A model generated the notes under the pieces. It did no database searches. It saw only the letters and a program-made list of their open reading frames with translations, and was not told the origin of the DNA. A stretch of DNA of 44,326 nucleotides, from positions 1 through 44,326 of IMG/VR virus record IMGVR_UViG_3300005518_000010. One strand, written 5' to 3'. Positions 3,950 through 33,436 of this stretch are shown here, piece by piece. Positions within the stretch are counted from its first letter, which is position 1. Each line of letters starts with the position of its first letter. The stretch comes from a virus. Position numbers and translations under genes: made by a program.

Positions 3950-4362
3950 CAGGCCGTCACCTGCTCGAAGTGGAACCGCCGCGCGGAGGCGTGGCTCTTC
4001 GCCGGCTGGGCGCGCAGCCACGCCACCACACCGACCAGGGCCGGGTCGTTCGTCGACGCGGTGATGGTGCAGCGGTCGCCCGCCTGCACCGCCGTTGACG
4101 TCGCCACCGGCAACTGCAGCTCGCGCGATATGGCCAACTGCGGCTGATCGGGGGCGGTGTTGATGTCGCGCGGATATCCGCCACGTTCCTGCACCCGGCA
4201 CGGCCCGGTGTAGACGGTCGAGGTCGTCTCCGTCGTCGCGCCGGTGGTTTCGTTCGTGGACGTTCCGGTGACCCGCACGATGGTGCACGTGTCGGGGAAG
4301 CCCCGCGTGGCACTGGCCGCGAAGGCGCGCGCGCGGGCCAGGACCGAGTTGGCCGTCATCAT
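3949..4362 (-). CDS. Head-tail connector, DUF6093-like
   Basis: This is a 137-residue protein with two consecutive ATG codons (4362 and 4359); the first makes an ATGA overlap with the upstream stop. After an Ala/Arg-rich helix it has beta sequence with PDTCTIVRVTGTSTNET, YTGPCRVQ, and LQLPVATSTAVQAGDRCTIT. This resembles the actinophage stopper-like family DUF6093, in which a GPC(R)VQ turn precedes a beta barrel. The family call is from memory of the pattern. The role as a connector follows from gene order (adaptor, this protein, gp10-like, tail terminator). Confidence 0.65.
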   Translation of the reverse strand: MMTANSVLARARAFAASATRGFPDTCTIVRVTGTSTNETTGATTETTSTVYTGPCRVQERGGYPRDINTAPDQPQLAISRELQLPVATSTAVQAGDRCTITASTNDPALVGVVAWLRAQPAKSHASARRFHFEQVTA

Positions 4363-5228
4363 CGCCTCGACAAGGTGACGTGGGCGGTGTAGCCGTAGGC
4401 CTCGCGGATCGCGGCGACCATGTACTCGGTGAGCCACATTCGCGCGTCGGCGTCGCCGTAGCTGACCTGGTAGTCGTCGATCGACTCCGATGATGCGGTC
4501 CCGCCCGGGTTGCCCCAGCCCATGGCGCCCAGCGATAGGGTCATGTCCTTACCGAGTTGCAGCCACTGCGACCCGGCCGGATACCCGGACGTGAACGAGC
4601 ACGTGACCTGCGACGGCGGGGAGTAGGTGCGCATCCACCCGCCGGCCCGCCACAGCATCTGCTTGCGCAGCACCCAGTCGGTGATGACCTCGCCGTCGAT
4701 CTGCACCTCGGCGACTTCCTGCACCGGCAACTGCGGCAATGGCAGGTAGTAGTCGCATGGGTCGCTGACGTCGATCAGCACGTCCTCATGTTCGACCTGG
4801 ACGATGCGCTGACCGCCGGCCGCGCGCTGCACCTTCGACGTGGCCAACTCGACGAGCATGGTCAGCGTCTGCTGTTGCGCCGTGGTCAGCGAGGTGTAGT
4901 CCAGTTGGAGGAACAGCGCCAGGTCCTGCGCGGTCGCCAGTTGGTCGCCTCGGGTGAACGGTGCGGCCGTCGGGGCGAGGTTGACCACGACAGTGCTGTA
5001 CTCGACGCCCTGCCCGGTGTTGGTGACGGTCCACGCGAACACCCAAAGGCCGGCCTGGTTGAGCGTTACTTCGTCGGCGGTCCACGTGGCGCCGCCGTCG
5101 GCGGTCGACTCGCCGGTGCCGGCTGTGATGGTGCCGTCGGGTGCGGTGATGGACAGCGAGGCGAGGGTGGTGCCGTCGAACGGGCTGACGGTCAGCGTGG
5201 GTGTGAGCAGATCACCGACGTCGGTCAC
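4359..5228 (-). CDS. Head-to-tail adaptor with N-terminal Ig-like domain
   Basis: This 289-residue protein starts with GTG at 5228. Residues 1-88 are a beta sandwich-like region (TLTVSPFDGTTLASLSITAP ... GLWVFAWTVTNTGQGVEYST). Residues 90-289 look like a gp6/gp15-type adaptor: QDLALFLQLDYTSL, TMLVELATSKVQRAAGGQRI, VQEVAEVQIDGEVI, and a long final helix. The adaptor binds the portal and receives the stopper protein. The N-terminal Ig-like part is an addition to the usual roughly 150-180-residue adaptor and could be exposed on the virion neck. Confidence 0.7.
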   Translation of the reverse strand: MTDVGDLLTPTLTVSPFDGTTLASLSITAPDGTITAGTGESTADGGATWTADEVTLNQAGLWVFAWTVTNTGQGVEYSTVVVNLAPTAAPFTRGDQLATAQDLALFLQLDYTSLTTAQQQTLTMLVELATSKVQRAAGGQRIVQVEHEDVLIDVSDPCDYYLPLPQLPVQEVAEVQIDGEVITDWVLRKQMLWRAGGWMRTYSPPSQVTCSFTSGYPAGSQWLQLGKDMTLSLGAMGWGNPGGTASSESIDDYQVSYGDADARMWLTEYMVAAIREAYGYTAHVTLSRR

Positions 5229-5230
5229 GA

Positions 5231-6871
5231 TCAGCCTCCTGTCGCGACGAGCACGGTCTGGGTTGGTGTTGCGTCAAGCTCCGACGTGGCCGAGGTGGTG
5301 CCGCTCAGGTCGTCCTGCCCGGTCTCGTAGGCGTCCAGGTCGGCCATGTCTTCGCCCGCCACAAGTAGGCGCTGGCCTTCGACGACGGCGAGGCCGAGGA
5401 ACGCCAACACCGCGGCCGCTGTGCCGAACACACCCCGGACACCGGAACTGGATGCGGCAAAGACGAAGCTGCCGACGGCTTGCCCCTGGACGGCGCTGCC
5501 GCCCGCGACGCCGCTCGCGGCCCCGCTGAACGTAAACGCGCCAGCCGCGGCGCCGACATGTCCGGCCACGCCCTGTGCTGTTGAGCCGAAGGTGAGGGCG
5601 GCAAGCCCTTGACCTTGGACGGCTCCGGCGATTTCACCGCTGGCGGCACCGACGAACGCGTAAGCGCCGAGCCCGGTCGCCACAACTCCCGGCACACCGG
5701 CGGCGGCACCGGTGAACGTGAACGCGGCGGTCGTTGCGCCGACGACGCCCGTAACGCCCTGTCCGGTACTGGTGAACGTGAACGCGGCGGTCGTTGACCC
5801 CACCACGCCCGGGATGCCCGAGCCAGTGCCTCCGAACGTGAATGCGCCGGCACCCTGCCCGATCACGCCCGGCACACCGCTGGCGGCGCCCGCAAACGTG
5901 AAGACTCCGGCGGCTTGGCCCTCTGGCCCAGGGGTCTCCACATCGCCGCTGGCCGCGCCGGTGAACGTGAAGGCGCCGAGCGCAGCCCCGACAACACCGG
6001 CCACGCCCTGAGCTGTCGACCCGAAGGTGAAAGCGGCGGTTGTTGCGCCGACCACACCGGGCACGCCGGCAGCGGTGGACCCGAAGGTCACGGCCTTGAC
6101 GGCGGCTCCGACGACGCCCGGCACACCGCTGGCCGTGGACCCGAAGGTAAAAGCGCCCAGGCCGGTGCCGGTCACGCCCTCACGGAGTCGCACGATAGCG
6201 GTCGCGCCGCATGTGCTCGTGGCTGAGGTGTGAGTCCAGGTTGGTGCGTTGGCGCTGCCGGTGCTAACCGATGCGTCGAACGAATACGCGCCGGAGTCCG
6301 TGCCGCTGGTCGAACGGGACGCGTTGCGCTGGGTGCGGGCGCCGAACGTCGCGCCGGTCTGGGTGATGGCCGGCGAGGTGATCGTCTGCGCGGCGTCGGT
6401 GTCGGTCGAGTTCGCCGCGACAAGCATGTCGTTGGGCAGCAGAGTCGTGGCCCAAGCCCCACACCCGGCCGACCAGTCCGCGCCGTGGGTGGTGTCGGCA
6501 CCGGACACGAGGACCGGATCGTGGAAGATCCCCGTGGTGGCAGAGTAGATCGACATAGCGCCGGCCGACGACACGCCGACGTCGTTGGTGACCGTTACCG
6601 AACCACTCTCGGAACCGGTCAGCCGCTTGTACCAGACACCGACCTTGGTGGTGCCGGCGTCGTTGGCCGAAGCGCCGGTACCGCCGGCCTGGGTACCGAT
6701 CGGGGTGAAACCGGTTACCGTGCCGAACACCGCGCCGGACAGTTTGACCGCGGCCACCAGGATTGCGATACGCCCGGCCGCAACCCCGGACGGGTAGGCC
6801 ACGCTGATGGAGGTCGTGCCCTGCGCGCTGGCAGCCGGGGAACCCGTCGAACCCTCATGTGCGATGGTCAT
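5231..6871 (-). CDS. Tandem-repeat surface protein of the neck/decoration region
   Basis: This is a 546-residue protein. Residues 1-230 form a beta-rich, Ser/Thr-rich domain (one Cys pair candidate, C137/C221). Residues 238-499 are about 13 copies of a 19-23-residue unit with the core GAFTFxSTAxGVPGVVGA; aromatic Phe pairs and Gly/Pro turns recur at fixed spacing, suggesting a beta-solenoid or fibrous rod. The last 45 residues are acidic. It is low in charge, and the repeats have few Lys/Arg. It lies between a fibre-like gene and the adaptor and beside the glycosyltransferase block, so it may be a virion fibre and a possible sugar acceptor. That link is inference. No known family was assigned. 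Confidence 0.7.
   Translation of the reverse strand: MTIAHEGSTGSPAASAQGTTSISVAYPSGVAAGRIAILVAAVKLSGAVFGTVTGFTPIGTQAGGTGASANDAGTTKVGVWYKRLTGSESGSVTVTNDVGVSSAGAMSIYSATTGIFHDPVLVSGADTTHGADWSAGCGAWATTLLPNDMLVAANSTDTDAAQTITSPAITQTGATFGARTQRNASRSTSGTDSGAYSFDASVSTGSANAPTWTHTSATSTCGATAIVRLREGVTGTGLGAFTFGSTASGVPGVVGAAVKAVTFGSTAAGVPGVVGATTAAFTFGSTAQGVAGVVGAALGAFTFTGAASGDVETPGPEGQAAGVFTFAGAASGVPGVIGQGAGAFTFGGTGSGIPGVVGSTTAAFTFTSTGQGVTGVVGATTAAFTFTGAAAGVPGVVATGLGAYAFVGAASGEIAGAVQGQGLAALTFGSTAQGVAGHVGAAAGAFTFSGAASGVAGGSAVQGQAVGSFVFAASSSGVRGVFGTAAAVLAFLGLAVVEGQRLLVAGEDMADLDAYETGQDDLSGTTSATSELDATPTQTVLVATGG
5375..6160 (-). repeat. Coding tandem repeat array (about 60-nt units)
   Basis: The DNA behind the repeat region shows recurrent motifs such as GGTGAACGTGAACGCGGC and GAAGGT(G/C)A on the plus strand at roughly 60-69-nt intervals. 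Some units are almost identical over 30-40 nt (for example 5708-5740 and 5768-5800), while others have diverged. This suggests recent unit duplication and slippage, so the unit number is likely to differ between relatives or within the population. Confidence 0.85.
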
Positions 6872-6894: not shown

Positions 6895-7287
6895 TCAGGA
6901 CGCGACGGACAGTGTTAGGTCCAAATCACCGACGGGGATGGTGAACGTGTCCCCGACCAGAACCGCGTTGGCGGTCATCGTCCCCGAGCAGAGAAAGGTT
7001 CCGTTGGTGCTGGCGTCGTGAGCCGACCAGTGGGTGTAGTCCTCAGCCGTGTCGACCTCACCCGTGGTCCAGCTGACCGCCACGTCGTTGGCGATAGCAC
7101 CGCCGGACGCCGCACCGAACGAGACCTGCTTGCGGGTGGCGTTACCGGCGATCGCGGTCGTACCGGCCGAGCCCGGATCGGCCGTGTGCAGCTGGATCCA
7201 AAACGCGGTAGGTGCGGTGATGTTGCCAGCGTTGCCCAGCGCATCCAGCACCGACGCGGCGAAAGCTGAAGCCAGTCCGGTCGCCAT
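6895..7287 (-). CDS. Tail-fibre-like / decoration protein
   Basis: The protein is 130 residues, ATG 7287 with GAGGAG 8 nt upstream. It starts with a short hydrophobic helix (ATGLASAFAASVLDALGNAG) and continues WIQLHTADPGSAGTTAIAGN, the conserved LHTADPG motif of a small tail-fibre-like family often found in phages. Beta-rich sequence follows, with VSWTTGEVDTAEDYTHWSAHD. The family is usually annotated as a tail fibre or virion surface protein. It heads the pair with the repeat protein after the sugar genes. Confidence 0.65.
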   Translation of the reverse strand: MATGLASAFAASVLDALGNAGNITAPTAFWIQLHTADPGSAGTTAIAGNATRKQVSFGAASGGAIANDVAVSWTTGEVDTAEDYTHWSAHDASTNGTFLCSGTMTANAVLVGDTFTIPVGDLDLTLSVAS

Positions 7288-7303: not shown

Positions 7304-7843
7304 CTAGCTCTCGTGCCACAGGTGGAAAAGGTCCGCGGTGCCGCGCCACGGCCGGCCGAAACGGGGAACCAGTTGGGTTTGCCAGACCTCGTCTTCGCGC
7401 CGGCCCATGACCGGCATCGGGCACGCCTCGAACACGTCGCGGCGCATGACGACCATGCCGCCGCCGGACACCGCCCGGTGCGGTGGCCGCTCCAACGAGC
7501 CGCGCGGACTCCAGTCGCCGTCGGCCATGACCTGCTCGCTGGCGTCCTTCGTCAGCCGCAGGATCCGCGCGTGCGGCACGGCCCACTTGGCGCCGGCCCG
7601 CACCGCGTCGACGGCCCGGCCGACTTCGGTGCACCACACGTCCGCGTCGGAGATGACGAGAACGTCGCCGCCGCAGGAGCGCACACCGTTTGCGACGACA
7701 CGGCCCTTGCACCATTCGCCGTCGGTATCGGTGGTCGTCAGCGACCAGTCGGAGTGCTCGCGCCGCCACAGGTGGAACAGGAAGTCCCAGGCAGGCTGCC
7801 GGTCTGGGCTTGGCCGCCAAGGCACGACCACGGCAACGCTCAC
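7304..7843 (-). CDS. Glycosyltransferase, GT-A fold
   Basis: This is a 179-residue enzyme starting with GTG at 7843, overlapping the upstream stop (GTGA). It starts VAVVVPWRPSPDRQPAWDFL, the nucleotide-binding strand of GT-A enzymes. SCGGDVLVISDADVW supplies a DAD metal/nucleotide motif, and the downstream part has SGGGMVVMRRDVFEACPMPV and a GRREDEVWQ acceptor-side segment, as in galactosyltransferase-like GT2/GT7 proteins. It is the last of five glycosyltransferases in the island, and probably acts on virion proteins or transfers an unusual sugar made by the epimerases. Donor and acceptor cannot be read from sequence. Confidence 0.75.
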   Translation of the reverse strand: MSVAVVVPWRPSPDRQPAWDFLFHLWRREHSDWSLTTTDTDGEWCKGRVVANGVRSCGGDVLVISDADVWCTEVGRAVDAVRAGAKWAVPHARILRLTKDASEQVMADGDWSPRGSLERPPHRAVSGGGMVVMRRDVFEACPMPVMGRREDEVWQTQLVPRFGRPWRGTADLFHLWHES

Positions 7844-8532
7844 TGCATCAACGCCCGCACCGTCGCCACGTCTGCCGCCATCTGCCCCTCGTCGTGCCAG
7901 GCGATGTAGGTGGCCTCGTCCCGGCCCCACTGCGTCGGGTTGTTGAACCGCTCGTACTGCTCATCCCAGGTCGACTTGCCCACGATGTAGTGCATGTGTT
8001 CGATCATGGTGTCGGGCAGGTACCGGATGCAGTCGGCCTCTTTGCCCAACGCGACCAGCGCCGTGTCGCAGAACAGGTGCTCCACTTTCGCCGGCACCAT
8101 CCGACCCAACGCCCGCACAATGTCGGTGGTCATCGCCCACGCCGTTGGCAACGTCTCGTCCTGGTAGCCGTCGGCGCCGTACACGATGCCGGTGCGCATC
8201 TCCTGCAACACCTGCACCCAGCGCTGCGCCCAGCCGACGGTGCGCGGCACATGGTCGTCGCCCATGAACCCGAGGGCGAAGTACGACCCGACCTCCTGCT
8301 CGACCGCCACCTCGAGCTTGTGGACGCACGGCCGCCACACATCCCACACCACCAGCCGTGCGCCCGGCGGAAGGTCTATCGCCTGATACGCCGGCAGCGC
8401 CGGGTCATCGGCGTCGACCTCGATGCGCAAGTCGGCTGACCCCCACGCCGCGGTGTGCGACCACGCGGTCAGCAGGCGCTGGATGTTCCACGTTCGAGTG
8501 CGTGCCGGGACGATAACGAGGAGGGGGGCCAA
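7840..8532 (-). CDS. Glycosyltransferase-like protein with uncertain (TTG) start
   Basis: From a TTG at 8532 (GGAAGG 8 nt upstream) the product is 230 residues. It starts LAPLLVIVPARTRTWNIQRLL, like the actinophage GT family, and carries VDADD and GFMGDDHVPRT, the acidic metal-binding motif, plus a C-terminal VEHLFCDTALVALGK helix. No ATG or GTG precedes the conserved N-terminus in this frame except far upstream in non-coding-looking sequence. It overlaps the upstream glycosyltransferase by about 128 nt in another frame, which is unusual here. A G6 run near the start leaves room for an indel. The core enzyme call is good. The start is weak. Confidence 0.65.
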   Translation of the reverse strand: MAPLLVIVPARTRTWNIQRLLTAWSHTAAWGSADLRIEVDADDPALPAYQAIDLPPGARLVVWDVWRPCVHKLEVAVEQEVGSYFALGFMGDDHVPRTVGWAQRWVQVLQEMRTGIVYGADGYQDETLPTAWAMTTDIVRALGRMVPAKVEHLFCDTALVALGKEADCIRYLPDTMIEHMHYIVGKSTWDEQYERFNNPTQWGRDEATYIAWHDEGQMAADVATVRALMQ

Positions 8533-9229
8533 CAGGGTGCCCTTCCGGTAGTGGGCTGGCCGGGTGCCAGGCGAAGTTGGGCGACCCGATGTCAAGCGGT
8601 CGCCACGGGTCGCCGTTGTCGTCGAAGCGCCGTATCTGCGCCGTCGGGTCGACCCACGCCGACATGGACGGATTCCACCAGTAGTGGTAGAGGATCCGGT
8701 CGACGAACACCTCGAGCCGCAGCCGGCCACGCAACTGCGCCACCCAGTGCCGGTCTTCCGGCTGGCCGAGAGGCGCACCGATGAACTTGGCCGTCCGGGC
8801 CAGGTCGGTGCGGATCGGGTTGGCGCAGGTGATGTCCCGACGCAGATGGTCGGCGCCGACGTCGAGCCAGGTGCCGTGGGACAGGCTGTGATGGGACAGG
8901 GCGTAGGGCAACCCGTCCTTGTACACCTGCAACTTCAGCCCGACATACTCCGGGCGCAGCGCCAGCGCCTTGGTGATGGCGGACACGTAGTCGTCGGAGA
9001 CGGTGTCGTCGTCGTCGACGAAGGAGACGTAGTCGGTGTCGGCGGCCTCGAGCAGTGCCTGTTTCTTGGTCGCGACGTCGACCTCGCCGTTGTCCCAGTA
9101 CGCCAGCACCTTCACGCCACGGGCGCGGTCGACCTGCGGCAAAAGCCCGTCGAGCATCTGACACAGGTACTCGCCGCGCTGCCCGAGGGTGGGGACAAGG
9201 ATCGTCCACGTCGGGGTCACGGCCGCCAC
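8405..9229 (-). CDS. Family 2 glycosyltransferase
   Basis: This is a 274-residue protein. It starts TWTILVPTLGQRGEYLCQML, a GT2 opening, and has the triplet YVSFVDDDDTVSDDYV with a four-Asp metal site. RHWVAQLRGRLRLEVFVDRILYHYW is the acceptor-side region. Residues beyond about 230 are His/Pro/Arg-rich and lie over the next gene's start, so the true end may be shorter or the reading frame may have been extended by an indel. It overlaps the epimerase upstream. It belongs to the glycosylation island between capsid and neck genes. Confidence 0.75.
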   Translation of the reverse strand: MAAVTPTWTILVPTLGQRGEYLCQMLDGLLPQVDRARGVKVLAYWDNGEVDVATKKQALLEAADTDYVSFVDDDDTVSDDYVSAITKALALRPEYVGLKLQVYKDGLPYALSHHSLSHGTWLDVGADHLRRDITCANPIRTDLARTAKFIGAPLGQPEDRHWVAQLRGRLRLEVFVDRILYHYWWNPSMSAWVDPTAQIRRFDDNGDPWRPLDIGSPNFAWHPASPLPEGHPVGPPPRYRPGTHSNVEHPAPADRVVAHRGVGVSRLAHRGRRR

Positions 9230-10284
9230 CGGTCAGCGTTGACCGCGTGTATCTCCTTCAGGATGGCCGCCGCGTCGTAGGTGGGTTTCCAGTGCGGGTA
9301 GCGGGTGCGGAGTCTGGTCGTGTCGGTGACCCACCAGCGGTGGTCGCCGCGGCGAGGGTCGAGGTGTTCGACAGTGGCGGGCCGGCCGGCGATGCCTTCG
9401 GCCAGCGCCAGCGCCTCCAAGATGGACACGTCGGTTCCGAGGCCGCCGCCGAGGTTGAACACCGTCCCCGGCTTAGGCGGGTCACGCCAAATGGCCTCGA
9501 TCGCGGTCACGACGTCGTGAGCGTGGAGCTGGTCGCGGACCTGCTTGCCGCCGTAGCCGAAGATCCGATAGGGCCGGCCGGTGGCCACGCAACGCATCAG
9601 GTAGGCGAGCATGCCGTGCGCCTCCGTGCCCGCGTGCGCGGGGCCGGTCAGGCACCCGGGCCGCAGGATCGTGGTGCGCAGCCCGTAGGCGTGGCCGTAT
9701 TCCTGCGCCATCAGGTCCGCCGCGGTCTTGCTCGCGCCGAACAGCGAGTGTGGGCCGCCGTCGATCGACATGGTCTCGTCGATGCCGTAGGTCCATTTCA
9801 GCCCGCCGGGCAGATCGAACCGGGTGGCGTACTCGACCAGCGGCAGGTCGTTCGGATGCGGCCCGTACACCTTGATCGTGGACAGGTAGACGAACACCGC
9901 ATCCGGCGCGTGGCGGCGGGTCGCTTCGAGCATGTTGAGCGTGCCGCCGGCGTTGATGTCCCAGTCGGTCAGCGGGTGCTCGTCGGCGTAGTCGTGCGCC
10001 GGCTGCGCCGCGGCGTGCACCACAACCGCCACGTCCTTGCCGTAGCGGGCCAGCACCGAATCGACCCGGCCCCGGTGGCAGATGTCGGCCGGGATGTGCG
10101 AGTAGCCGCTGCCGAGGTCGGCGCCGAGCCGGTCCAGGTTGTCCTGTACCGACGCGTCGCCGCCGAAGAACTGGCCGCGCATGTCGTTGTCAATGCCCGC
10201 AACGTGCAGCCCCAGTGCACTGAAGTGGCGTGCCGCCTGCGAGCCGACCAGCCCGCCCGAGCCGGTGACGATCGCGACGCTCAC
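9217..10284 (-). CDS. CDP-paratose 2-epimerase-like NAD-dependent epimerase
   Basis: This is a 355-residue extended SDR enzyme, started here at GTG 10284 (GTGA overlap). It has the Rossmann motif GSGGLVGSQAARHF, AAAQPAHDYADEHPLTDWDIN and the catalytic block IDGGPHSLFGASKTAADLMA. RPGCLTGPAHAGTEAHG and YGGKQVRDQLHAHDV follow. These segments match the CDP-paratose/tyvelose 2-epimerase (RfbE) family closely, which interconverts C2 configuration of CDP-3,6-dideoxyhexoses. The real substrate in this phage is unknown. It would feed the neighbouring glycosyltransferases. Confidence 0.8.
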   Translation of the reverse strand: MSVAIVTGSGGLVGSQAARHFSALGLHVAGIDNDMRGQFFGGDASVQDNLDRLGADLGSGYSHIPADICHRGRVDSVLARYGKDVAVVVHAAAQPAHDYADEHPLTDWDINAGGTLNMLEATRRHAPDAVFVYLSTIKVYGPHPNDLPLVEYATRFDLPGGLKWTYGIDETMSIDGGPHSLFGASKTAADLMAQEYGHAYGLRTTILRPGCLTGPAHAGTEAHGMLAYLMRCVATGRPYRIFGYGGKQVRDQLHAHDVVTAIEAIWRDPPKPGTVFNLGGGLGTDVSILEALALAEGIAGRPATVEHLDPRRGDHRWWVTDTTRLRTRYPHWKPTYDAAAILKEIHAVNADRWRP

Positions 10285-11204
10285 GACTGCCACCCGGGCA
10301 GCCAGTGCTCGGCGTACCAGAGCGCCGTCTCCAGGATGCCAGCACCCAACGGCTTAAGATCTTCGACGTCCATGCCAATCGGCGCCAAGGTCGCCGGATC
10401 ACACGTGATGTACGCACCGGGCGTCTCGCCCGGCCGCATCGGCAAATGGACGATCTCCGAGACGTTGCCGGTTAGTCCGGCTGCGGCCTTGACGACCAGG
10501 TCGGCCACCTCTAGCACGGCGGTGTGTTCTTCCGGGCCGCACTCCATGACGTCGGGCACCACGACTCCGGCGGCGGCGGCCTCCAACGCGAGCACCAGAG
10601 CCAGAGCTCCGTCGCGCACCCACACCATGTCAGAGACCTGTTTGCCGTCGCCGTACACCTCGACCGGGGCGCCGGACAGGGCGCGGGCGATGAACGCCGG
10701 GGTGATTTTACGGACCTTCGATGTGCCGTACGGGGCGGCCATTGACTGCCGCGGCCCGTACGCGTTGACCAGGCGCACCTGGTTGAGTCTCAGACCGCGA
10801 TCGCGCACGTACATGTGGCCGAGCGTTTCGACGCACGTCTTCGACGCGCTGTAGGGGTTGGAGAATCCGGCATTTCCGACCGCGATGTTGACCACTGGCA
10901 GGCCGTACTGGACGCCAGCTTCCATCACGTTCATACCCGAGATGACGTTCGTCATCACTGCCGGGCGCGGGTTGTGCACCGTCTCCGCCGTGCCGAGTAC
11001 CGAGGCGAGGTGGATGATGCCCTCGACGTGCGCGGCGAGCTCGGTGACCGCTACGTCGTCGCGGGTGTCGCCCAACATGACGGTGACGTCGCGGTGCGAC
11101 CGGCCGATGTGGTCGAAAATCAGCGGCTCGTGCCCGCGCTCAATCAGCACATCAACGACGTGTGAGCCGATGAACCCGGCGCCGCCGGTCACGCCTACGC
11201 GCAT
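10281..11204 (-). CDS. NAD-dependent sugar epimerase/dehydratase
   Basis: This is a 307-residue short-chain enzyme with GGAGFIGSHVVDVLIERGH at its start (GxxGxxG) and the catalytic YSASK (NPYSASKTCVETLGHMY). YGPRQ and VEVYGDGKQVSDMVWVRDGA are typical of UDP-glucose 4-epimerase or NDP-sugar dehydratase/epimerase proteins. It overlaps the HNH gene upstream and the second epimerase downstream, so the two epimerases look translationally coupled. They probably act in one pathway making the sugar that the glycosyltransferases attach. The exact reaction cannot be assigned. Confidence 0.8.
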   Translation of the reverse strand: MRVGVTGGAGFIGSHVVDVLIERGHEPLIFDHIGRSHRDVTVMLGDTRDDVAVTELAAHVEGIIHLASVLGTAETVHNPRPAVMTNVISGMNVMEAGVQYGLPVVNIAVGNAGFSNPYSASKTCVETLGHMYVRDRGLRLNQVRLVNAYGPRQSMAAPYGTSKVRKITPAFIARALSGAPVEVYGDGKQVSDMVWVRDGALALVLALEAAAAGVVVPDVMECGPEEHTAVLEVADLVVKAAAGLTGNVSEIVHLPMRPGETPGAYITCDPATLAPIGMDVEDLKPLGAGILETALWYAEHWLPGWQS

Positions 11205-11665
11205 GCCGCTGCTCCCAACCGAGCTAGGTCATAACGCTTATGGCAGGACCGGCAAAGGGCCAACCAGTCGGTAAGATCTCTCCGGTACTCGCCGGACTTG
11301 TTCGCCCAATCCAGCGGTTTGTCGGTCTTCCCGCAGTGCTCGCAGGCGTCGGGCTGGTCCCGGTAGCGACGAACCCAGTCATGCAGGGCGTCATATCCGA
11401 CCTCGTCGCCCTTCCATGCGTGGTGACTCGGACCTGTCCGGCGACCCTTGCGTGGGCGTGGCGTCGCAGTGCCGGCGTTGTGCGGTGCCTGGCCCGGCGA
11501 GAACCAAGCGCGATTCGTAACCTTGATCTCGTAGGTAAGCCCAGACGGTCTCGTTCGGTAGGTGTAGAAGCACGCCTTCGAGCAGTACCTGCCCCGGCCG
11601 ACCGCGACCCTGCGAGCATCAGCCTCAAATCCTTGGCCGCATGGACACGTCACCCCGACCTTCAC
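11195..11665 (-). CDS. HNH homing-type endonuclease
   Basis: The product is 156 residues from GTG 11665, which overlaps the upstream stop (GTGA). The N-terminus has a zinc-like CPCGQGF ... CSKAC pattern. The C-terminus has CEHCGKTDKPLDWANKSG, then WLALCRSCHKRYD, the paired CxxC motifs and histidines of an HNH nuclease. It sits within the sugar operon between a glycosyltransferase and an epimerase, as free-standing homing endonucleases commonly do. It may have been inserted there and is not needed for sugar synthesis. Confidence 0.8.
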   Translation of the reverse strand: MKVGVTCPCGQGFEADARRVAVGRGRYCSKACFYTYRTRPSGLTYEIKVTNRAWFSPGQAPHNAGTATPRPRKGRRTGPSHHAWKGDEVGYDALHDWVRRYRDQPDACEHCGKTDKPLDWANKSGEYRRDLTDWLALCRSCHKRYDLARLGAAACA

Positions 11666-12285
11666 GGAACGGCCAGGCCGTAATGGCGGGCGATGTCCTG
11701 ATGCACCCGGTGCCGTTCCTGCGGAGTCATGGAGGTATTCCTTCCGCCTCGGTCCGAATGGGCCAGGTAGACGGCGTCGGTGTGCTCGAACGTCGCGCCG
11801 GCCTGCCAGCACTCCACCCAGAACGCGTAGTCCTCGTACACCGGCCACTCCCGCCACCGGCATTTCTGCGCGATGTCGGTGCACACCATGGCCCCGACCA
11901 CCAGCCAGTTGCCGAACGCGAGACAGTCGCCGACGCACATATGGGTGTGACCCCATACGTTCATCCGCTTCGGCTCGCGGCGGCGGGCGCGGGACAGGTT
12001 CGGGTGCCGCAGGTAGGCCACCATCGGTGCCCGCACGTCGGCAGAGCCGACAGCCATCTGGTCGATGTAGTCGGCCGGAAGTTCGTCGTCGGCGTCCAGA
12101 TGGATGACCCATTCGGTGTCCACCTGGTCGAGGCCGTTGTTGCGGGCCTCCGCCACCGTAGCGCCCTCACCGACCAGTACCGGCACACCCAGCGCCTTCG
12201 CCGACGGTATGGCCCGCTCGTGCGCCCACGTCCGCCACGGATCCCCGGTGTAGGGGACCACGACGGTTACGTCAAGCGTCGCCAC
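11662..12285 (-). CDS. Family 2 glycosyltransferase
   Basis: This is a 207-residue enzyme starting at GTG 12285 (ATLDVTVVVPYTGDPWRTW follows); the start overlaps the previous gene by 19 nt. It has VVVPYTGD at the nucleotide-binding strand, VAEARNNGLDQV, and the metal motif VIHLDADDELPADYI. A later YEDYAFWVECWQAGA block is the usual catalytic-base ED region of GT2 enzymes. Upstream residues in the frame are Arg-rich and non-conserved, so the shorter start is used. It is one of five glycosyltransferases in the island. Confidence 0.8.
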   Translation of the reverse strand: MATLDVTVVVPYTGDPWRTWAHERAIPSAKALGVPVLVGEGATVAEARNNGLDQVDTEWVIHLDADDELPADYIDQMAVGSADVRAPMVAYLRHPNLSRARRREPKRMNVWGHTHMCVGDCLAFGNWLVVGAMVCTDIAQKCRWREWPVYEDYAFWVECWQAGATFEHTDAVYLAHSDRGGRNTSMTPQERHRVHQDIARHYGLAVP

Positions 12286-12920
12286 AGCCTGCGCCTGTAC
12301 GAGAAGATCGGCATGCCGGCCCGGTACCGTTCCGACATCCCCGCGTAGGTCACGTCCCACTCACCCTTGCCCCACATCGGGTGGAGATGTTCGACGATCG
12401 CATCGGTGGCGTGCGCGTACGCGCCGCGGGCGCGGGCGGTGTCGACCGCCTCATCGTCGACGAACTCGTGCGGGTAGCCCTCGTGGAAGAACTTGCCCGG
12501 CTCGTCGATGGTGCCGAACTGCTCGACGTAGGCGCGGGTGACGAGCATGTGCGTGGACCCCCGCCCGGTTGCGGTGCGCCCGTTGCCGAGGTCGTTGGTC
12601 CCCACCACGCCGATGCCGGGGGCCAGATGAGCGCAGGCCGCCTCATACCAGCCGGGGTGGAACTTGAGGTCCGAGGCGCCGGTGAAGATGTGCTCTTCGG
12701 CGCTCGCCTTGATGCCCGTGTTTATCTTGCGGGCGTAGTCGCCTGTGTCCTGCCACTCGACGAACAGATGCTCTTCGCCAGCCACCGTCTCGGCGACTTC
12801 ATCGTCACCGGGGGTCAGCAGGAACAGCACCCGGGCGTCGCAGGTCGATCTGATGGACTCAAGCAGCGGCGCCACGTGCTGCGGCCGGCCGAGCATCGGC
12901 ACCAGAATGACCAGGCTCAC
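12267..12920 (-). CDS. Glycosyltransferase, GT-A type
   Basis: This 217-residue protein starts with GTG overlapping the upstream stop and reads SLVILVPMLGRPQHVAPLLE, the start common to actinophage GT-A enzymes. IFTGASDLKFHPGWYEAAC holds the short acidic motif (SD), and VGTNDLGN and EGYPHEFVDDEAV follow, with histidines in the C-terminal half. It opens the sugar block directly after the capsid and its small neighbour. It acts in the host cytoplasm while virions assemble. Substrate unknown. Confidence 0.75.
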   Translation of the reverse strand: MSLVILVPMLGRPQHVAPLLESIRSTCDARVLFLLTPGDDEVAETVAGEEHLFVEWQDTGDYARKINTGIKASAEEHIFTGASDLKFHPGWYEAACAHLAPGIGVVGTNDLGNGRTATGRGSTHMLVTRAYVEQFGTIDEPGKFFHEGYPHEFVDDEAVDTARARGAYAHATDAIVEHLHPMWGKGEWDVTYAGMSERYRAGMPIFSYRRRLWRRLT

Positions 12921-13174
12921 GCCTTCGCCGACTCCTTCTTCGCCGCCGCAGCCTTCGCAGCAGCATGCGCGGCGACCATCTCCGGCGGCGCCTCATACAC
13001 AGCCGGCTCGACGCTGACCGAGAAAAGCTCCTCGCGGCGGGCTTTCCCCTTCAGCGTCTCGATCATGCTGAATCCGGTACTGGGCGACCCGTCCTTGTTG
13101 GGGGCGTCCTCGTAGAGGAGGAAACGCGGCTTCTCGCCCTCAACGCGCACAACGGTCACTCTTTGCAGGGTCAT
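12917..13174 (-). CDS. Small protein after the major capsid gene, function unknown
   Basis: This protein is 85 residues, ATG 13174, with GAGGAGA 5 nt upstream. The first 50 residues are beta/alpha mixed (LQRVTVVRVEGEKPRFLLYE ... FSMIETLKGKARREE) and the C-terminus is an Ala/Lys-rich helix (HAAAKAAAAKKESAKA). Its place between the capsid gene and the sugar genes fits a head protein or a decoration protein. No family was recognised. Confidence 0.6.
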   Translation of the reverse strand: MTLQRVTVVRVEGEKPRFLLYEDAPNKDGSPSTGFSMIETLKGKARREELFSVSVEPAVYEAPPEMVAAHAAAKAAAAKKESAKA

Positions 13175-13193
13175 TCGGTCTCCTCGTTAGGGG

Positions 13194-13225
13194 CCTTGGG
13201 CGGGTCGGGTCCGACCCGCCCAAGG
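13194..13225. terminator. Perfect palindrome after the capsid gene (attenuator candidate)
   Basis: A 15-bp arm (13194-13208) is followed by two bases and its exact inverse (13211-13225). It lies between the capsid stop (13234) and the next start (13174). There is no U-tract on the minus strand, so it is more likely a partial terminator or 3'-end stabiliser that raises capsid mRNA over the downstream genes, rather than a full stop. Confidence 0.6.
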
Positions 13226-13233
13226 CGATTCGG

Positions 13234-14124
13234 CTAGGCGCTGACGCCGAGGTTGACGTCCACGTCGCAGGCAACCAGGCACTCTGGGCGGACAACCTTG
13301 CCGCCGTAGAGGTGCAGGCCCTTGACGGCGTCGGAGAACGCGTTCTCCGGCCGGTACGCCTCGATCTTGTTGATCTGCTGCGCCCACGTGGTGCCCATCG
13401 CGTGGCCGGCAATCACGTAGTTGGAGTAGTTCGGGGCCGACCCGCCGTAGGTGCCGACGGGCAGGTTGTTCGACACCAGCACCCGGAAGCCGGCAACCTG
13501 GCCGATCTCGCCGTTGAGGATCGGCGTGCGCGCGCCGTACTGCGACGCGTCGATGAACCGACTGTCGCCGATCATCAGGCCCTGGAAGTCGGGCGACACG
13601 GCCAGCCAGCGGCCCTCCAGCGGCACGCTGTCGCGGTCAAGTTCGACCTTCATCCGGCGGATGAGCAGGAACGCCGAGTTGCGACTGGCTTCGCTGTCAA
13701 CCAGGTACAGCGGGTCCAGCGTCGTGCCGGCCCCTACCGCCATCAGCGCGGCGAGGAACGTGTCGGCGGTGTCGCGCAGCTTGAATGCCGAACGACGCCG
13801 GGCCGAGGCCATCAGGTTGCCACCGTCGCGGACCTGCCGGGCGTCGATGTCGTCGATCTCCCACGCGAAGTACGGCGTCTGGTCGATGAGCAGTTGCTGG
13901 TTGCTGGTGGTCAGCGTCGCCGGGTTGATCGTGGTGGAGTTCTTGGTGTACGTCGAGATCGTCGGGTCGGTCAGTGAGCCGATGTTGACGGTGTCGCCGT
14001 ACTGGCTGACCTCGCCTTCGTAGTCGGTGTTCACGACACCGGCCTGGCCGAAGACCAGGTTCTCTTCGAGCGTGGTGAGGAGGCTGGCTGCCCAAACCTC
14101 GGGGATAAAGGTGTCGACAGCCAT
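13234..14124 (-). CDS. Major capsid protein
   Basis: This 296-residue protein has ATG at 14124 with AGGAGA upstream. It starts AVDTFIPEVWAASLLTTLEE, which resembles the N-terminus of P22 coat/Gp5-like capsid proteins of actinophages, and has WEIDDIDARQ, SAFKLRDTADTFLAAL and a beta-rich P-domain region (VPLEGRWLAVSPDFQGLMIG). GFRVLVSNNLPVGTYGG follows. It lies directly after the scaffold gene, as expected, and no protease gene was seen, so processing is probably not required. It would build the icosahedral shell. Confidence 0.88.
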   Translation of the reverse strand: MAVDTFIPEVWAASLLTTLEENLVFGQAGVVNTDYEGEVSQYGDTVNIGSLTDPTISTYTKNSTTINPATLTTSNQQLLIDQTPYFAWEIDDIDARQVRDGGNLMASARRRSAFKLRDTADTFLAALMAVGAGTTLDPLYLVDSEASRNSAFLLIRRMKVELDRDSVPLEGRWLAVSPDFQGLMIGDSRFIDASQYGARTPILNGEIGQVAGFRVLVSNNLPVGTYGGSAPNYSNYVIAGHAMGTTWAQQINKIEAYRPENAFSDAVKGLHLYGGKVVRPECLVACDVDVNLGVSA

Positions 14125-15071: not shown

Positions 15072-15274
15072 GGTGTCGGCTCCGCAAAGTAGAGGTAACC
15101 GTTAGACCAGCCATCTCGCATGATCTGCTGAGCGATGACCTTGTCGCCCTCGCGGTGGCGCTGGCTACGCAGAACGCCATCTGCAGCGCCCTCGAAATGC
15201 GGCGTTCCATCCTGGTCCACCGTGAGCGACCCGGCCGGGCGTTCGGTCGTCACCACTCGTAGTCCACGCGTCAT
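15068..15274 (-). CDS. Small protein overlapping the MuF gene end, immunity candidate
   Basis: The 68-residue protein begins with ATG that overlaps the MuF stop (ATGA), so translation is coupled. It is beta-rich with TTERPAGSLTVDQDGTPHFE and a C-terminal RDGWSNGYLYFAEP. It carries no known domain. Genes placed straight after MuF toxins are the usual site of immunity proteins, so that is the main idea to test here. A capsid-associated role is the alternative. Confidence 0.5.
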   Translation of the reverse strand: MTRGLRVVTTERPAGSLTVDQDGTPHFEGAADGVLRSQRHREGDKVIAQQIMRDGWSNGYLYFAEPTP

Positions 15275-18200
15275 GAAGCCAGCATATTCCGCGTGCCAAC
15301 TGCCCGCTTTTCAAGCTCGCGCAGCTGGCGGATCATCGCGTTATACCAGTCAAGTCGGCCTTGGGCCGCAAAGTCCGGTCGTAGCCGGACCAACCGGCGG
15401 CGGATGACCGCCAAATCGGCTTTCGATATGTCGACTACTGCCGCCAAGACTGGATCGCCAGTGAGCGTGTCGGCCCCGCGGAGATACCCGCTGAAGTCGC
15501 CCCACAGACCATAGGGAACCTTCGGATCGAAGAATGGATCCGCAAAATCGCCGAAGTTCCCGCCGAAGTCGATGGCCGCGATCCGACCGTCAGGCAGGCG
15601 GATCCAGTTGCCTGTGTTCCGATCGCCACCATATGTCAGGTAGTCCGCGAGCCCGATCAGCCGGCCATCATCCGAGTCGAGAATGGCCCGCGGGACCGTT
15701 GCGCCGTAAGAGACGATGTCATCTCCCAGGGTGCCGTCAATGTACTCAATCGCTGCTGTGCGGCGGTCGAATCGCAGAACGGCTGGGGCACGAACTCCGA
15801 GCGCATCGAACACGCGTGACGCGAGTTCTTCTTGAGTGACGAGCAAGCGGCCTTCGCTGTTGTTCGGGTAGACCTTGCGCACAACCATGCGGCCGTCTAG
15901 GTCTACCTCGATAGTCGTATGGCCTTGCGCGCCTCCACCCACCGAACGGACGCGCAGTGCACCGCCAGCGTTGATGATGTCATCGACTTCACGCCGTCGC
16001 GCTTCGTAGGCCGCAGGACTCCAGGTCTTCGGGGTGGTGGGTTTTGGCACGATCGCCGTAACCCGGGCCTTCTCCACCTGCAGCACCGTGCCGTCCGGCA
16101 ACGTCAACGTCGACCCGCGCCGCACCACAACCACCTGAGCACCGGCCGGGATCTTCGCCGTGGACTCCATCGTGGCCGGGTCGAACTTGACCTTCGCGCC
16201 CGCGCGGGAGATCGGCTTAACCTTCGCCTTCGTTCCTGCCCGGGTCAACGCGGTGCGCAACGCGGTCGGCTCACCGGACGCGAGCGCGGCACGCAACGCC
16301 TTCACAACGTCCGGGTCGACGGCCACCGCAGCGTCCAGCCGTTCGCGGATGGCCGCCTTCGTCGCCTTGCCGGAGATCAGTTCGTCCACTTCGGCGAGCA
16401 GCTTGGCGGTGCCGGTGCGGGACTCGATCAGCGCGGTGCGCTCGGCCGCAGCCGCACGCAACGCCTTCGCCTCAGCTGCAGCACGCTGCGCCGGGGACAT
16501 GCGCAGCGCCTCAACCAGTTGCGCCTTGGTCGCCTTCGCCGGCAGGAACGTGACGCCCTGGTCGGCGGCCATGGTGCGGAGTTGGGCGACGGGGAGCTTG
16601 GCCAGGTCGGGGGCGACAGTGCGGGACGGCGTCACACCAAAGTCCGCCAGACGCAGCGGCGAATCGCCCTTCTTCAGCACTCGCCAAGGGATCTGCTGCC
16701 GGGCAAGTGCAGCAATCGTGGCCTGGTCGGGCGCCTGGCTGAAGACAACACCTGCGATGTCTTCAGCCCGGATGCCACCATGGATCTGAGCCTCGACATA
16801 ACCGCGCCGAGTCCAGTCCGGTTCGGTGATCTGCTTCAGGTCGCGGAAGCCCAGAGACTCGGCGGTCGGAGCATCCACGGGCGTCGGGCGCAGGAAACCA
16901 ATCTCGTCCAGGCTGTCGCCGACCGTCGCCGTGGTTCGAGCTCGGACCTCGGGCTTCAGGACGATCTGAATCTGGCCATACGAACTGAGGACGTCTTCCT
17001 GACCCTCGAGTTCGCGGATGCCCGGGATCCTGCGCCCAGCGGCGAGCGCCGGCTCAACGTCATTGATCGCGACATACCCATAGACCGGCCGCTCGGCAAC
17101 CGGAATACCGACAGGCACACCCATGACGGTTTCGCCAAGCTCACGACGCTCATGCGAAACCGACAAGCCCGGAGCGCGCCGACCCGTCTCGAATGACGTC
17201 TTGAACCGGCCGCTGGCCAGAATGTCCTGCAGGCCGTTCTCGCCACGGCGAACGACGATCGGCTTCCCGTCGAACAGCGCCTTTAGTTCGGTCGCGACCC
17301 TCGCCCGATATTCAGTCGGCGTCAGGCCAGCCTTCTTCGCGGCCCGGCCGATCTCTCGCCGGATGCTGGCGTCCTGCACCGCGCGCTCGACGAAGGCACG
17401 CTCGCGCTCGTAGATGCGCTGCAGCCACGCCGCGTCCGCAGCACTGAGGTTGCCAGACGTCGATATGGATCCGAGCCGGTCCTGAACCGTGGCAAAGATT
17501 TGCGGATCGCGTCCAACCAGACGGGCGACGCGAGCCTGTTCATCGGCAGTAAGGCTCGTTTCGAGCTTCGCCAAGAGTCCAGCCCTCGGCTTTGCCGTCG
17601 GCACACCCTCGTCCAGTAGCCGCACAATGTCGGCCTTCTTCGCCCCCGCCGGGATGGTGACACCACGCTCGCGGGCCAAGGTGCGCAACTGCGGGACGGT
17701 CATACGCGACAGGGGTACCGCCGCCTGGACGCCCGAGCGCAGTGCGGCCATCTCCGCCTTGGCCTGATCGGTTAGGAAGTAGCGAGTTACGGTCTGCTGT
17801 GCACGACCGGCGACAGTCTCACCGGTCAGCCGGCCGGCCTCTTTCCGCACTAGCCCCTGCGAAACGAGCGCGTCCAGATCCTCAGAGAGCCCAATTGCGG
17901 TGCCGGGATCGGCCTCTATCCGGGCCAAGAGATCGGCCTTGGCCCGCCTCGTCGCCAACCGGCCGCCAGCCAAACTGGGCAGATTGGCGAGATCAGACGC
18001 GGCGGCGACCGGTCGCACGCCTGCGGCCTCAAGAATCCGAACTATGTCCGACTTCGCCGATAGCGGCGGGATGGTGACGCCGTGCTGACGAGCCAGGTCC
18101 CGCAACTGCGGGACGGTCATCGAGTTCAGCCCGCTGGCCGCACCCCGAGCCGGGAACCGTGCCACCGGCCCGCCGAGCGCGGTGAACCCGCCGGCCCGGT

Positions 18201-19956
18201 ACTCCCGCTCCAACACCTCGACGATGCGACGCGACGCCAGCGACGCCTGTTCGCCGCGGAGCATCACGTCGGTGAACGCCTCGGCGATCATCTCGTGCGT
18301 GTCTTTGGACGCGTAGGCGGAGATTTCCCGCTGGATGAACTCGTCGGTCAGCAGGTCGGCCTGATACGACAAGGTCTCCACCCGCAGCAGAACCTCGGCG
18401 TGGATCCGCTCCCCGAGGTTGTCCATGTCGAGGATGTGGCCGAACTCGTGGATAGCTACGGCGGTCGGGTTTCCGGCGCCGCGGGTGTTCCAGCCGGCGG
18501 GGCCCAGCCGCCACCCATCGACATCGGCGCTTAAGTTGTGCAGCAGTGCCGGACGGTTGGCGGTGTTCGCCCAGCGCGCGTTGAAGTGGATCGCGCCGCC
18601 GCCAGCCTCAGCAAACTCCTTCTCCGATAAGTTGAAAACGAACCGGATCTCGTTAAGCCGCGCATCGGGGAAGCGTTCCAACCCGCGCAGCACACCCTCG
18701 GCGTATTCGCGCCCGGTCGCCAACGACGTGCCTGGCGGAATATCGATCAACACGTGGCGGCCGGTGAGACCACGAATCTCCGCTCGCCACGCATTCTCCA
18801 GCTGTGTGGTCGTCTTCGCCCGCATCAACGCCGGACGGACCGTGACCGGCTCGCCAGCGGGGCCGAGCAGACCGCCCGGACCGGGCAACGACGGGCGTCG
18901 GGTAATCGGCGGCACCGGCGGCAAGCCCAACGCCTCAAACCGCGCATGCACGTCGGCGAACAGTTCCTCGACCGTCGGCAACACCCGCGGCGGATCGACC
19001 AGGTAGCCGTTGCGGTACAGCAGCGCCAACGCCTCGTCCCGGTTGTCCCCGGCGATGCGGTAGATCTCGTTCGTGGTCAGCCGCGGCTGACCCTTCAGCC
19101 GCGCGCCGGCCTGGCCCAGCCGGGTCGTGCCTTCGAGGGTGGTGCCATCGGGACGGCGGACCCGGCGACGGCCCGTGCCCGGCACATACATGCCGCGCTG
19201 GGCGTTGACGACCTGGTTCAGGTCCGCGCCCTCGGCGATGGCCCGCTGGTCGGCCTTGGTAAAGCCCGCGCGGGTGCGTTGCGACGCCGTCATCCGGTCA
19301 TAGATCTGCTGCGGAGACTTCGCCTTACGGGCCTTACGCCGACCTGACGGGACGTGCACACAGTCGCAGCGGGGATGACGGAGGAAGCCGGCGTTCCACT
19401 CGTATTCCTTGCCGGCCAGGATCAGGCACCGGGCGCACGAGTTGCCAACCGCCAGACGGGTGTAGCCGGTCGCCGCGCGGTGGGATGTGAGCGCCACCTG
19501 GTCGGCCAGGCGGCCGGCGTCGGCGACCTCCGTACGCACGATCATGTCCAGGTTCGACCGGCCCATGCCCATCGCCCGACTGAGGTCGATGCCGTCGGAG
19601 ATGGACGACAGCGTGATGAAAGCCGGGTGCGTAAACAGCGACATCAGCGACCCGCCCTCGGCGGAAACCCCGGCGAAGCCGGCCGGGTCGACCGCCGAAA
19701 CCGCCTCTTCGGTGACGTCCTGCGCGCCGAGCGCCGCCGACACATACGGGTCGGCTGAGCGGGCCGCACCCAACTGCGCACCGGACACGACGGCGGTGAG
19801 CTCGGGCACCTGTGCAGCCCACGAGTTGACGATGTCGTTCGGGTTGACCTCGGACCACATCTGCCCGGCCACCTCGGCCGACGCGCCGACGAACACCTCG
19901 CGCTGGCTGTAGTGATCCAGGCTCAGGTCGTTAAGCTGCTGCGCTGGCGCGGCCAC
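15271..19956 (-). CDS. Giant MuF-type capsid polyprotein with protease, DUF3626-like and kinase-like domains
   Basis: This 1,561-residue protein begins with GTG 19956, overlapping the portal by 26 nt. Residues 1-320 are MuF: helical, with NSCARC (174, 177) and CDC-H (197-201). Residues 370-590 hold a metalloprotease-like domain with HEFGH (503-507) and a HEMIAEAF helix (554-561) for the third ligand. SAP-like units MTVPQLRxLARxxGVTIP occur at 613, 752 and 1121. Residues 895-1105 resemble DUF3626 (RGENGLQDILASGRF, YGYVAINDVE, VGDSLDEIG, YVEAQIHG). Residues 1330-1480 look kinase-like: Gly-rich loop GGGAQG, K1361, GGDRNTGN (D1445, N1450), IDFG (D1463). The MuF part is normally in the capsid. Toxin-bearing MuF proteins are known in temperate phages, but this stack is far longer than an ordinary MuF head protein. 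Confidence 0.85.
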   Translation of the reverse strand: MAAPAQQLNDLSLDHYSQREVFVGASAEVAGQMWSEVNPNDIVNSWAAQVPELTAVVSGAQLGAARSADPYVSAALGAQDVTEEAVSAVDPAGFAGVSAEGGSLMSLFTHPAFITLSSISDGIDLSRAMGMGRSNLDMIVRTEVADAGRLADQVALTSHRAATGYTRLAVGNSCARCLILAGKEYEWNAGFLRHPRCDCVHVPSGRRKARKAKSPQQIYDRMTASQRTRAGFTKADQRAIAEGADLNQVVNAQRGMYVPGTGRRRVRRPDGTTLEGTTRLGQAGARLKGQPRLTTNEIYRIAGDNRDEALALLYRNGYLVDPPRVLPTVEELFADVHARFEALGLPPVPPITRRPSLPGPGGLLGPAGEPVTVRPALMRAKTTTQLENAWRAEIRGLTGRHVLIDIPPGTSLATGREYAEGVLRGLERFPDARLNEIRFVFNLSEKEFAEAGGGAIHFNARWANTANRPALLHNLSADVDGWRLGPAGWNTRGAGNPTAVAIHEFGHILDMDNLGERIHAEVLLRVETLSYQADLLTDEFIQREISAYASKDTHEMIAEAFTDVMLRGEQASLASRRIVEVLEREYRAGGFTALGGPVARFPARGAASGLNSMTVPQLRDLARQHGVTIPPLSAKSDIVRILEAAGVRPVAAASDLANLPSLAGGRLATRRAKADLLARIEADPGTAIGLSEDLDALVSQGLVRKEAGRLTGETVAGRAQQTVTRYFLTDQAKAEMAALRSGVQAAVPLSRMTVPQLRTLARERGVTIPAGAKKADIVRLLDEGVPTAKPRAGLLAKLETSLTADEQARVARLVGRDPQIFATVQDRLGSISTSGNLSAADAAWLQRIYERERAFVERAVQDASIRREIGRAAKKAGLTPTEYRARVATELKALFDGKPIVVRRGENGLQDILASGRFKTSFETGRRAPGLSVSHERRELGETVMGVPVGIPVAERPVYGYVAINDVEPALAAGRRIPGIRELEGQEDVLSSYGQIQIVLKPEVRARTTATVGDSLDEIGFLRPTPVDAPTAESLGFRDLKQITEPDWTRRGYVEAQIHGGIRAEDIAGVVFSQAPDQATIAALARQQIPWRVLKKGDSPLRLADFGVTPSRTVAPDLAKLPVAQLRTMAADQGVTFLPAKATKAQLVEALRMSPAQRAAAEAKALRAAAAERTALIESRTGTAKLLAEVDELISGKATKAAIRERLDAAVAVDPDVVKALRAALASGEPTALRTALTRAGTKAKVKPISRAGAKVKFDPATMESTAKIPAGAQVVVVRRGSTLTLPDGTVLQVEKARVTAIVPKPTTPKTWSPAAYEARRREVDDIINAGGALRVRSVGGGAQGHTTIEVDLDGRMVVRKVYPNNSEGRLLVTQEELASRVFDALGVRAPAVLRFDRRTAAIEYIDGTLGDDIVSYGATVPRAILDSDDGRLIGLADYLTYGGDRNTGNWIRLPDGRIAAIDFGGNFGDFADPFFDPKVPYGLWGDFSGYLRGADTLTGDPVLAAVVDISKADLAVIRRRLVRLRPDFAAQGRLDWYNAMIRQLRELEKRAVGTRNMLAS

Positions 19957-33159: not shown

Positions 33160-33359
33160 GCGACCTTCACCTCGATCTGGATACGCGAGGCGAACCAGTT
33201 GGACAGGGTCTGCCAACTCACGCTGATGCCGGTCGTCTGGTGAATCTCGGCCGCGATGGCCTTCCACGAGGTGTAGGGACGCCGCTGCTCGATCAGTTCG
33301 GCCAGGGTCCCGGGTAGCCGCTCCTCGATGAGGCGATAGAGCTGGCTCGGTTCCGTCAT
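33156..33359 (-). CDS. Cro-like helix-turn-helix protein
   Basis: This 67-residue protein starts with ATG 33359, directly before a palindrome in its own upstream region. It has LAELIEQRRPYTSWKAIAAE, then IHQTTGISVSWQTLSNWFAS, the HTH layout seen in actinophage Cro/excise-like proteins. It is divergent from the repressor-like gene. As first gene of the early operon it probably switches early transcription or represses the repressor. A slightly longer frame begins within the operator region. Confidence 0.75.
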   Translation of the reverse strand: MTEPSQLYRLIEERLPGTLAELIEQRRPYTSWKAIAAEIHQTTGISVSWQTLSNWFASRIQIEVKVA

Positions 33360-33360
33360 G

Positions 33361-33374: not shown

Positions 33375-33436
33375 ACAGACGATAGTTGTCCCGCAAGAGG
33401 ACACTCAGAACTTCTGTGAGATAACCCTCTTGGGTG

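Follow-up and report, generated by a model that had tools for sequence, protein, structure and literature searches.

We analysed the IMG/VR virus record IMGVR_UViG_3300005518_000010, a stretch of 44,326 bases that is taken here in full and referred to as the window. Its structural operon lies on the minus strand and runs, in order, through terminase, portal, MuF-type head protein, scaffold, major capsid protein, a block of sugar-enzyme genes, head protein, repeat protein and head-tail adaptor. The block, which is the subject of this report, occupies positions 7304-12920 (minus strand) and contains seven sugar-enzyme genes: five encode GT-A-type glycosyltransferases (GTs) and two encode nucleotide-sugar short-chain dehydrogenases/reductases (SDRs), designated EpiB and EpiA. 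An earlier note on this DNA had described five glycosyltransferases and two epimerases between capsid and neck genes. All of these genes are present, as judged by PHROG and Pfam matches, by the G+C content at third codon positions (GC3) and by the fold of the protein GT2, and the flanks are the major capsid gene (13234-14124) and the head-tail adaptor gene (4359-5228). That gene list had, however, overlooked an HNH endonuclease-like gene at 11195-11665.

Read from the capsid side, and all on the minus strand, the block begins with GT8 (12267-12920), a putative glycosyltransferase that matches phrog_14945 (4e-9) and is without a relative in phage records. GT7 (11662-12285) is a GT2-like glycosyltransferase with PF13632 and PF00535 above the Pfam cut-off and a PHROG match at 1.2e-5. 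The HNH gene, which is not a sugar gene, follows (phrog_8446, 5.6e-5; CxxC...CxxCH motif). EpiB (10281-11204) and EpiA (9217-10284) are extended SDRs and both exceed the cut-off for Pfam Epimerase (PF01370; 4.4e-33 and 1.9e-37, respectively). EpiB resembles nucleotide-sugar epimerases and dehydratases, and EpiA has the fold of a cytidine diphosphate (CDP)-tyvelose 2-epimerase with Phe182 in place of the catalytic tyrosine. GT3 (8405-9220) carries an FVDDDD motif (phrog_14775, 4.8e-39), GT2 (7840-8532) is a GT-A glycosyltransferase with a GDDH motif (phrog_2675/14945, best PHROG E value 1.7e-60) and GT1 (7304-7843) is a putative glycosyltransferase (phrog_1721, 1.5e-7) with relatives in locus L096 (58% identity) and in Streptomyces phages (about 33%); retrieved loci are numbered in this way throughout. 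The Pfam family GT2 is matched above the cut-off by GT7 alone and below it by the proteins GT1 and GT3, and the Pfam scan gave no match for the proteins GT2 and GT8. All seven sugar-gene frames are open, with strong GC3 and codon periodicity. Start and stop codons overlap in the GTGA manner at GT7/HNH, EpiB/EpiA, EpiA/GT3 and GT2/GT1, and also between GT8 and the small post-capsid gene g12917; most of the island genes are predicted to be translationally coupled, to this small gene as well as to one another.

Two details of the layout deserve mention. The HNH gene lies between GT7 and EpiB and is missing from this position in L061-L064, where EpiB directly follows a GT; its GC3 is 0.73, compared with 0.85-0.91 in its neighbours, and it is probably a recent mobile insertion. 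GT3 and GT2 nominally overlap by 128 bases (8405-8532). Relatives of GT3 end near residue 229, and the GC3 signal switches frame near 8560. On these grounds a functional role for the long overlap was rejected; the functional end of GT3 is probably near 8540 and the remainder probably an unconstrained read-through tail.

The major capsid protein (phrog_267, 5.3e-61) is 56% identical to gp27 of Streptomyces phage phiSASD1, in which the capsid gene is followed by a 60-residue gene and then by the head-tail adaptor. Capsid and adaptor are 8006 bp apart in the window but 206-516 bp apart in 27 capsid relatives from IMG/VR. Pfam Epimerase and GT2 matches were absent from 38 capsid-relative records, and a tblastn comparison of all eight island proteins with 48 capsid-relative loci gave no match. 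The sugar block is therefore an insertion next to the capsid gene.

A core of this block, EpiB-EpiA-GT3-GT2, is found again, with its gene order preserved and at 60-85% identity, in six IMG/VR contigs (3300028812_000228, 3300028592_000754, 3300038441_002335, 3300019996_000009, 3300020020_000673 and 3300011421_000129). The loci listed as core carriers are L055, L056, L057, L058, L063 and L064; 3300019996_000009 corresponds to L062 and 3300020020_000673 to L063. Wherever the flanks are included in the contig, the core lies between capsid and head-tail adaptor, and the core-bearing relatives have two other capsid types without detectable relation to that of the window. The GTs around the core vary: in the relatives it is preceded by a GT of 349 residues and a GT1-like gene, and the window has GT8, GT7 and GT1. 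The EpiA proteins of the cassette phages form one clade (support 100/100) that is separate from the bacterial homologues.

The family of GT2 is larger, with at least 544 relatives in IMG/VR according to a profile scan. Among the best 80 loci, 77 with a GT2 match were used for counting context, a locus being assigned to a head module when genes on the same strand encode capsid, portal, protease, MuF or terminase proteins upstream, adaptor or neck proteins downstream, or both. GT2 lies in such a module in 48 of the 77 and directly after tail genes in 17; the remaining 12 were left without an assignment. Capsids of PHROG families 283 and 10 are among the neighbours, and relatives of GT3 are found in 48 of the best 80 loci. 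This locus, taken with its relatives, points to a widespread GT family in head and tail operons, a subset of which is accompanied by its own sugar-nucleotide enzymes.

The AlphaFold2 model of GT2 has a predicted local distance difference test (pLDDT) score of 95.9 and a clear GT-A fold. Its solved fold neighbours are GT-A enzymes with Z scores of up to 17.6, the best of them being a tie between polypeptide N-acetylgalactosamine (GalNAc)-transferases (Z = 17.6) and the polysaccharide fucosyltransferase WrtF (Z = 17.3); the teichoic-acid GTs TarP, TarS and RmlT are also among them. One distant fold neighbour is named as a TET-associated GT. The acidic metal/nucleotide motif Asp92-Asp93-His94 is invariant in 36 sequences. 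Searches of Protein Data Bank (PDB) sequences found no relative of GT2 at an E value of 1 and only a chance-level match for GT3, and a simple hydropathy scan of the GTs indicated no clear membrane segment. A counterpart of the GT3-GT2 pair in a named phage is pas33-pas34 of Actinoplanes phage phiAsp2, two adjacent genes that are homologous to GT3 and GT2 in the same order (43% each); the GT2 model superposes on Pas34 with a template-modelling (TM) score of 0.96. The phiAsp2 pair differs in that it follows tail genes, lacks an SDR pair and carries a putative O-methyltransferase joined to its second gene product, and Pas34 is annotated as 'putative O-methyltransferase'. We also note that locus L165 (8320-10713) encodes GT3, GT2 and a putative methyltransferase as one natural fusion protein of 797 residues. 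Its domains are ordered as in chlorovirus A064R, and the fusion suggests that GT3 and GT2 work as a pair.

The EpiA model (pLDDT 90.5) is nearest in fold to CDP-tyvelose 2-epimerase (RfbE, PDB entry 1ORR), with a Z score of 45.7 and a root-mean-square deviation of 1.4 over 332 aligned residues; the next entry has a Z score of 39.1. The same entry is the best PDB sequence match (5.6e-32), at 29% identity. The close resemblance to CDP-paratose 2-epimerases claimed in the earlier note thus holds at the level of the extended SDR fold. At the YxxxK site, where 1ORR reads HSPYGCSK, the catalytic tyrosine is replaced in all 28 aligned phage and bacterial members of the EpiA family, by phenylalanine in 26 and by methionine in two, so that CDP-tyvelose/paratose 2-epimerase activity of EpiA is not to be assumed. 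The family does keep Ser135, Thr/Ser136 and Lys186. According to their PDB titles, related epimerases have been crystallized with this tyrosine changed to phenylalanine (1A9Y and 6ZLJ). EpiA may use another acid/base, catalyse a different step or merely bind the sugar. Apart from EpiA, no gene of the paratose pathway was recognized in the window, although the host could supply these functions.

EpiB, in contrast to EpiA, keeps the YxxxK motif (NPYSASK), and its identity to the EpiB proteins of cassette relatives is 81-83%. Its relatives in Streptomyces phages (53%) are annotated as uridine diphosphate (UDP)-glucose dehydrogenase. Seven large phages of Streptomyces (Quantum, Satis, Kradal, EhyElimayoE, JustBecause, Kela and Frankenweenie) carry relatives of both EpiB (about 53%) and GT1 (about 33%), at distant sites, a co-occurrence that hints at a functional link. 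An attempt to name the sugar from the neighbourhoods of bacterial EpiA genes was not decisive; these contain a tandem second SDR in five loci and GT-like genes in four.

Two of the cassette phages are nearly identical except in EpiA. Between L062 and L063 the capsid proteins are 95.5% identical, EpiB 95.8%, GT3 91%, GT2 92%, the two proteins after GT2 92-93% and the adaptor 86%, whereas the EpiA proteins share merely about 60-62%. At the DNA level the identity falls to 0.57-0.74 at about 9140-10075 of L062, compared with 0.83-0.94 in the adjoining windows of the comparison. L064 carries the L063 version of EpiA, to which the EpiA of our window is 75% identical, and the EpiA proteins of L062 and L055 group together. 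Given the near-identical backbone, EpiA alleles have been exchanged alone, as a single-gene swap, of which one case was seen. The swap suggests a selective reason, namely glycan switching. A more far-reaching scheme, in which one cassette at a fixed capsid-adjacent site serves unrelated capsids and the tyrosine-less EpiA is exchanged alone to switch the glycan of the particle, is put forward only tentatively, and we consider it rather less probable than its opposite. The exchange is a natural experiment: two close phages would be expected to differ mainly in one sugar, which would make the purpose of virion sugars directly testable.

In our view, the block is probably a machine for the glycosylation of virion proteins with a phage-specified sugar, like those of Corndog and Che8. 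This interpretation draws on what was observed, namely the genes, the GT-A fold of GT2 and the SDR fold of EpiA, the position in the operon, the insertion, the reuse of the core and the one replacement of EpiA. Of the earlier proposal that the island makes or remodels a sugar and attaches it to the virion, remodelling and attachment are supported, and the link to the virion gains support from a position beside head or tail genes that is kept across unrelated capsids; the acceptor proposed there, the repeat protein, is not supported. The mechanism that we envisage is one in which the block would be expressed late as a virion glycosylation module. EpiB and/or EpiA, as soluble NAD-type (nicotinamide adenine dinucleotide) SDRs, would start from a nucleotide sugar of the host and convert it into an activated sugar, one that may be missing from the host itself. 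GT3 and GT2 would act as a pair, joined by the variable GT8, GT7 and GT1 in stepwise transfer, and the sugars would be placed on a virion protein during assembly, most likely the capsid protein or tail tube and possibly a head fibre or decoration protein. We infer the late expression, the sugar, the acceptor and the order of transfer, as we do a benefit through masking or through changed adsorption or stability; that virions are hidden or adsorb differently is a guess.

Among phages, glycosylated virions have been described in a small number of mycobacteriophages, in which the sugars influence recognition by antibodies. Glycosylated virion proteins occur in Che8, Corndog and Myrna, the modification being reported for capsid and tail tube (PMC12363180, citing Freeman 2023). 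In Corndog, the portal and protease genes are separated by two GT genes and by genes for a putative N-acetylglucosamine (GlcNAc)-transferase and an O-methyltransferase (PMC4351075). The likeness to these phages is that of an actinobacterial phage with several GT genes in the structural operon near the capsid gene. The gene maps differ in that the one for Corndog shows an O-methyltransferase there but not a pair of sugar-nucleotide SDRs, while the window has two SDRs and no methyltransferase; furthermore, the GTs precede the capsid gene in Corndog and follow it here. A functional parallel is offered by the chlorovirus PBCV-1, in which viral nucleotide-sugar enzymes and the GT-GT-methyltransferase protein A064R build the glycan of the capsid protein (PMC9614988). 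Both systems combine virus-encoded nucleotide-sugar enzymes with GTs, and the domain order of A064R is matched by the L165 fusion. However, PBCV-1 is a eukaryotic virus, the likeness is a functional one, and GT3 and GT2 of the window are separate and without a methyltransferase. Its own two-SDR sugar supply and the exchange of EpiA set the present system apart from known phage virion glycosylation.

Several observations weigh against virion-protein glycosylation. The tie between GalNAc-transferases and WrtF means that the fold of GT2 names no acceptor, and the modelled GT-A fold would not tell a protein from a glycan. With its catalytic tyrosine missing, CDP-tyvelose/paratose 2-epimerase activity in the EpiA family is doubtful. 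A position in the late operon would suit any late function. The capsid protein of the window has an ordinary Ser+Thr content (14.5%, compared with a mean of 13.6% in relatives lacking GTs), and a search of it for a Ser/Thr insertion or acceptor signature found none. Finally, the repeat protein and the cassette are not co-inherited.

This last point bears on the acceptor. The repeat protein (5231-6871, minus strand) is fibre-like, with 23% Ser+Thr, and its N-terminal domain has a single relative (L161) among all loci retrieved. In L096, which of all relatives is closest to the window at the GT3-GT2-GT1 end, the adaptor directly follows GT1, and in L061/L055 and L100 it directly follows GT2; none of these has a repeat or decoration gene between the last GT and the adaptor. 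The repeat protein was therefore rejected as an obligatory acceptor. In L062, L063, L064 and L098, GT2 is followed by a Thr-rich repeat protein unlike that of the window, together with a decoration-like protein. A head fibre is thus a possible acceptor but not a universal one; by precedent, the capsid protein or tail tube would be the likeliest.

The best-surviving alternative, which we nevertheless regard as unlikely, is that the enzymes modify the host surface, changing a receptor or a wall polymer of the cell in the course of infection or in the lysogen to bring about superinfection exclusion or serotype conversion. The phage does possess an integrase and a helix-turn-helix (HTH) regulator, and teichoic-acid GTs are among the fold neighbours of GT2. 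The island, however, lies inside the capsid operon, about 21 kb from the integrase gene (33939-34823), and the same site is used in phages with other capsids. The block also differs from GtrAB(C) serotype-conversion systems in that it contains no GtrA-like flippase, and a simple hydropathy scan of its GTs found no clear membrane segment.

Somewhat less likely still is hypermodification of DNA, in which the GTs would glycosylate phage bases in the T4 or TET-linked manner and thereby resist restriction. DNA-modification systems with phage GTs next to sugar genes of the SDR type are known, one distant fold neighbour of GT2 is named as TET-associated, and PHROG calls the GT2 family 'DNA methyltransferase'. 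We rejected this label as a naming artefact, since the family includes GTs fused to a putative O-methyltransferase, and the location of the island is tied to structural genes. Pfam and PHROG searches of about 40 window proteins, from a contig that may be incomplete, found no Tet_JBP, C5 cytosine methylase, thymidylate synthase or hydroxymethylase family; a Tet_JBP scan of the whole record was uninformative, its positive control being silent. That the block is a mobile passenger, perhaps carried by the HNH gene and without a present role in the virion, would agree with the HNH gene within it, its absence from all capsid relatives searched and the missing tyrosine of EpiA, but is the least probable of all in the face of seven open frames with strong codon periodicity, a core kept at 60-85% identity at one position in several phages and the absence of the HNH gene from relatives such as L061-L064.

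The remaining genes around the block, all on the minus strand, are a small post-capsid gene (g12917; 12917-13174) in the position of phiSASD1 gp28, the stop of which overlaps the GT8 start, and, downstream of the GTs, a decoration-like head protein (6895-7287; phrog_240, 2.3e-24). The head-tail adaptor (phrog_442, 5.9e-16; phrog_17896, 1.1e-19) has an extra N-terminal domain (residues 1-105) that is 59-69% identical in L062, L063, L064 and L098, and each of these four loci likewise carries a repeat-protein gene next to the adaptor; the domain is missing in L096, L061 and phiSASD1. A strong hairpin (13175-13237, minus strand; about -37 kcal/mol) lies directly 3' of the capsid gene. Comparable hairpins are present after the capsid genes of phiSASD1, L018, L022 and L033, but not of L062 or L063; our guess is that the hairpin acts as a partial terminator setting capsid against downstream expression. 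An Rfam search gave no match.

The MuF-type head protein (15271-19956, minus strand) has 1561 residues, compared with 214 in its phiSASD1 counterpart. It contains an HEFGH zincin-like motif, SAP/HeH/Rho_N segments and a C-terminal segment that, as judged by eye, is kinase-like (GGDRNTGNW...AIDFGG), and its C-terminal part is 42-52% identical in the cassette phages L058, L063 and L064. This protein may be a head-carried effector. The HTH regulator (33358-33846) and the integrase, which is of the tyrosine type, are both encoded on the plus strand and point to a probably temperate phage. The ends of the contig apparently split the tape-measure gene, so that the record seems to be permuted.

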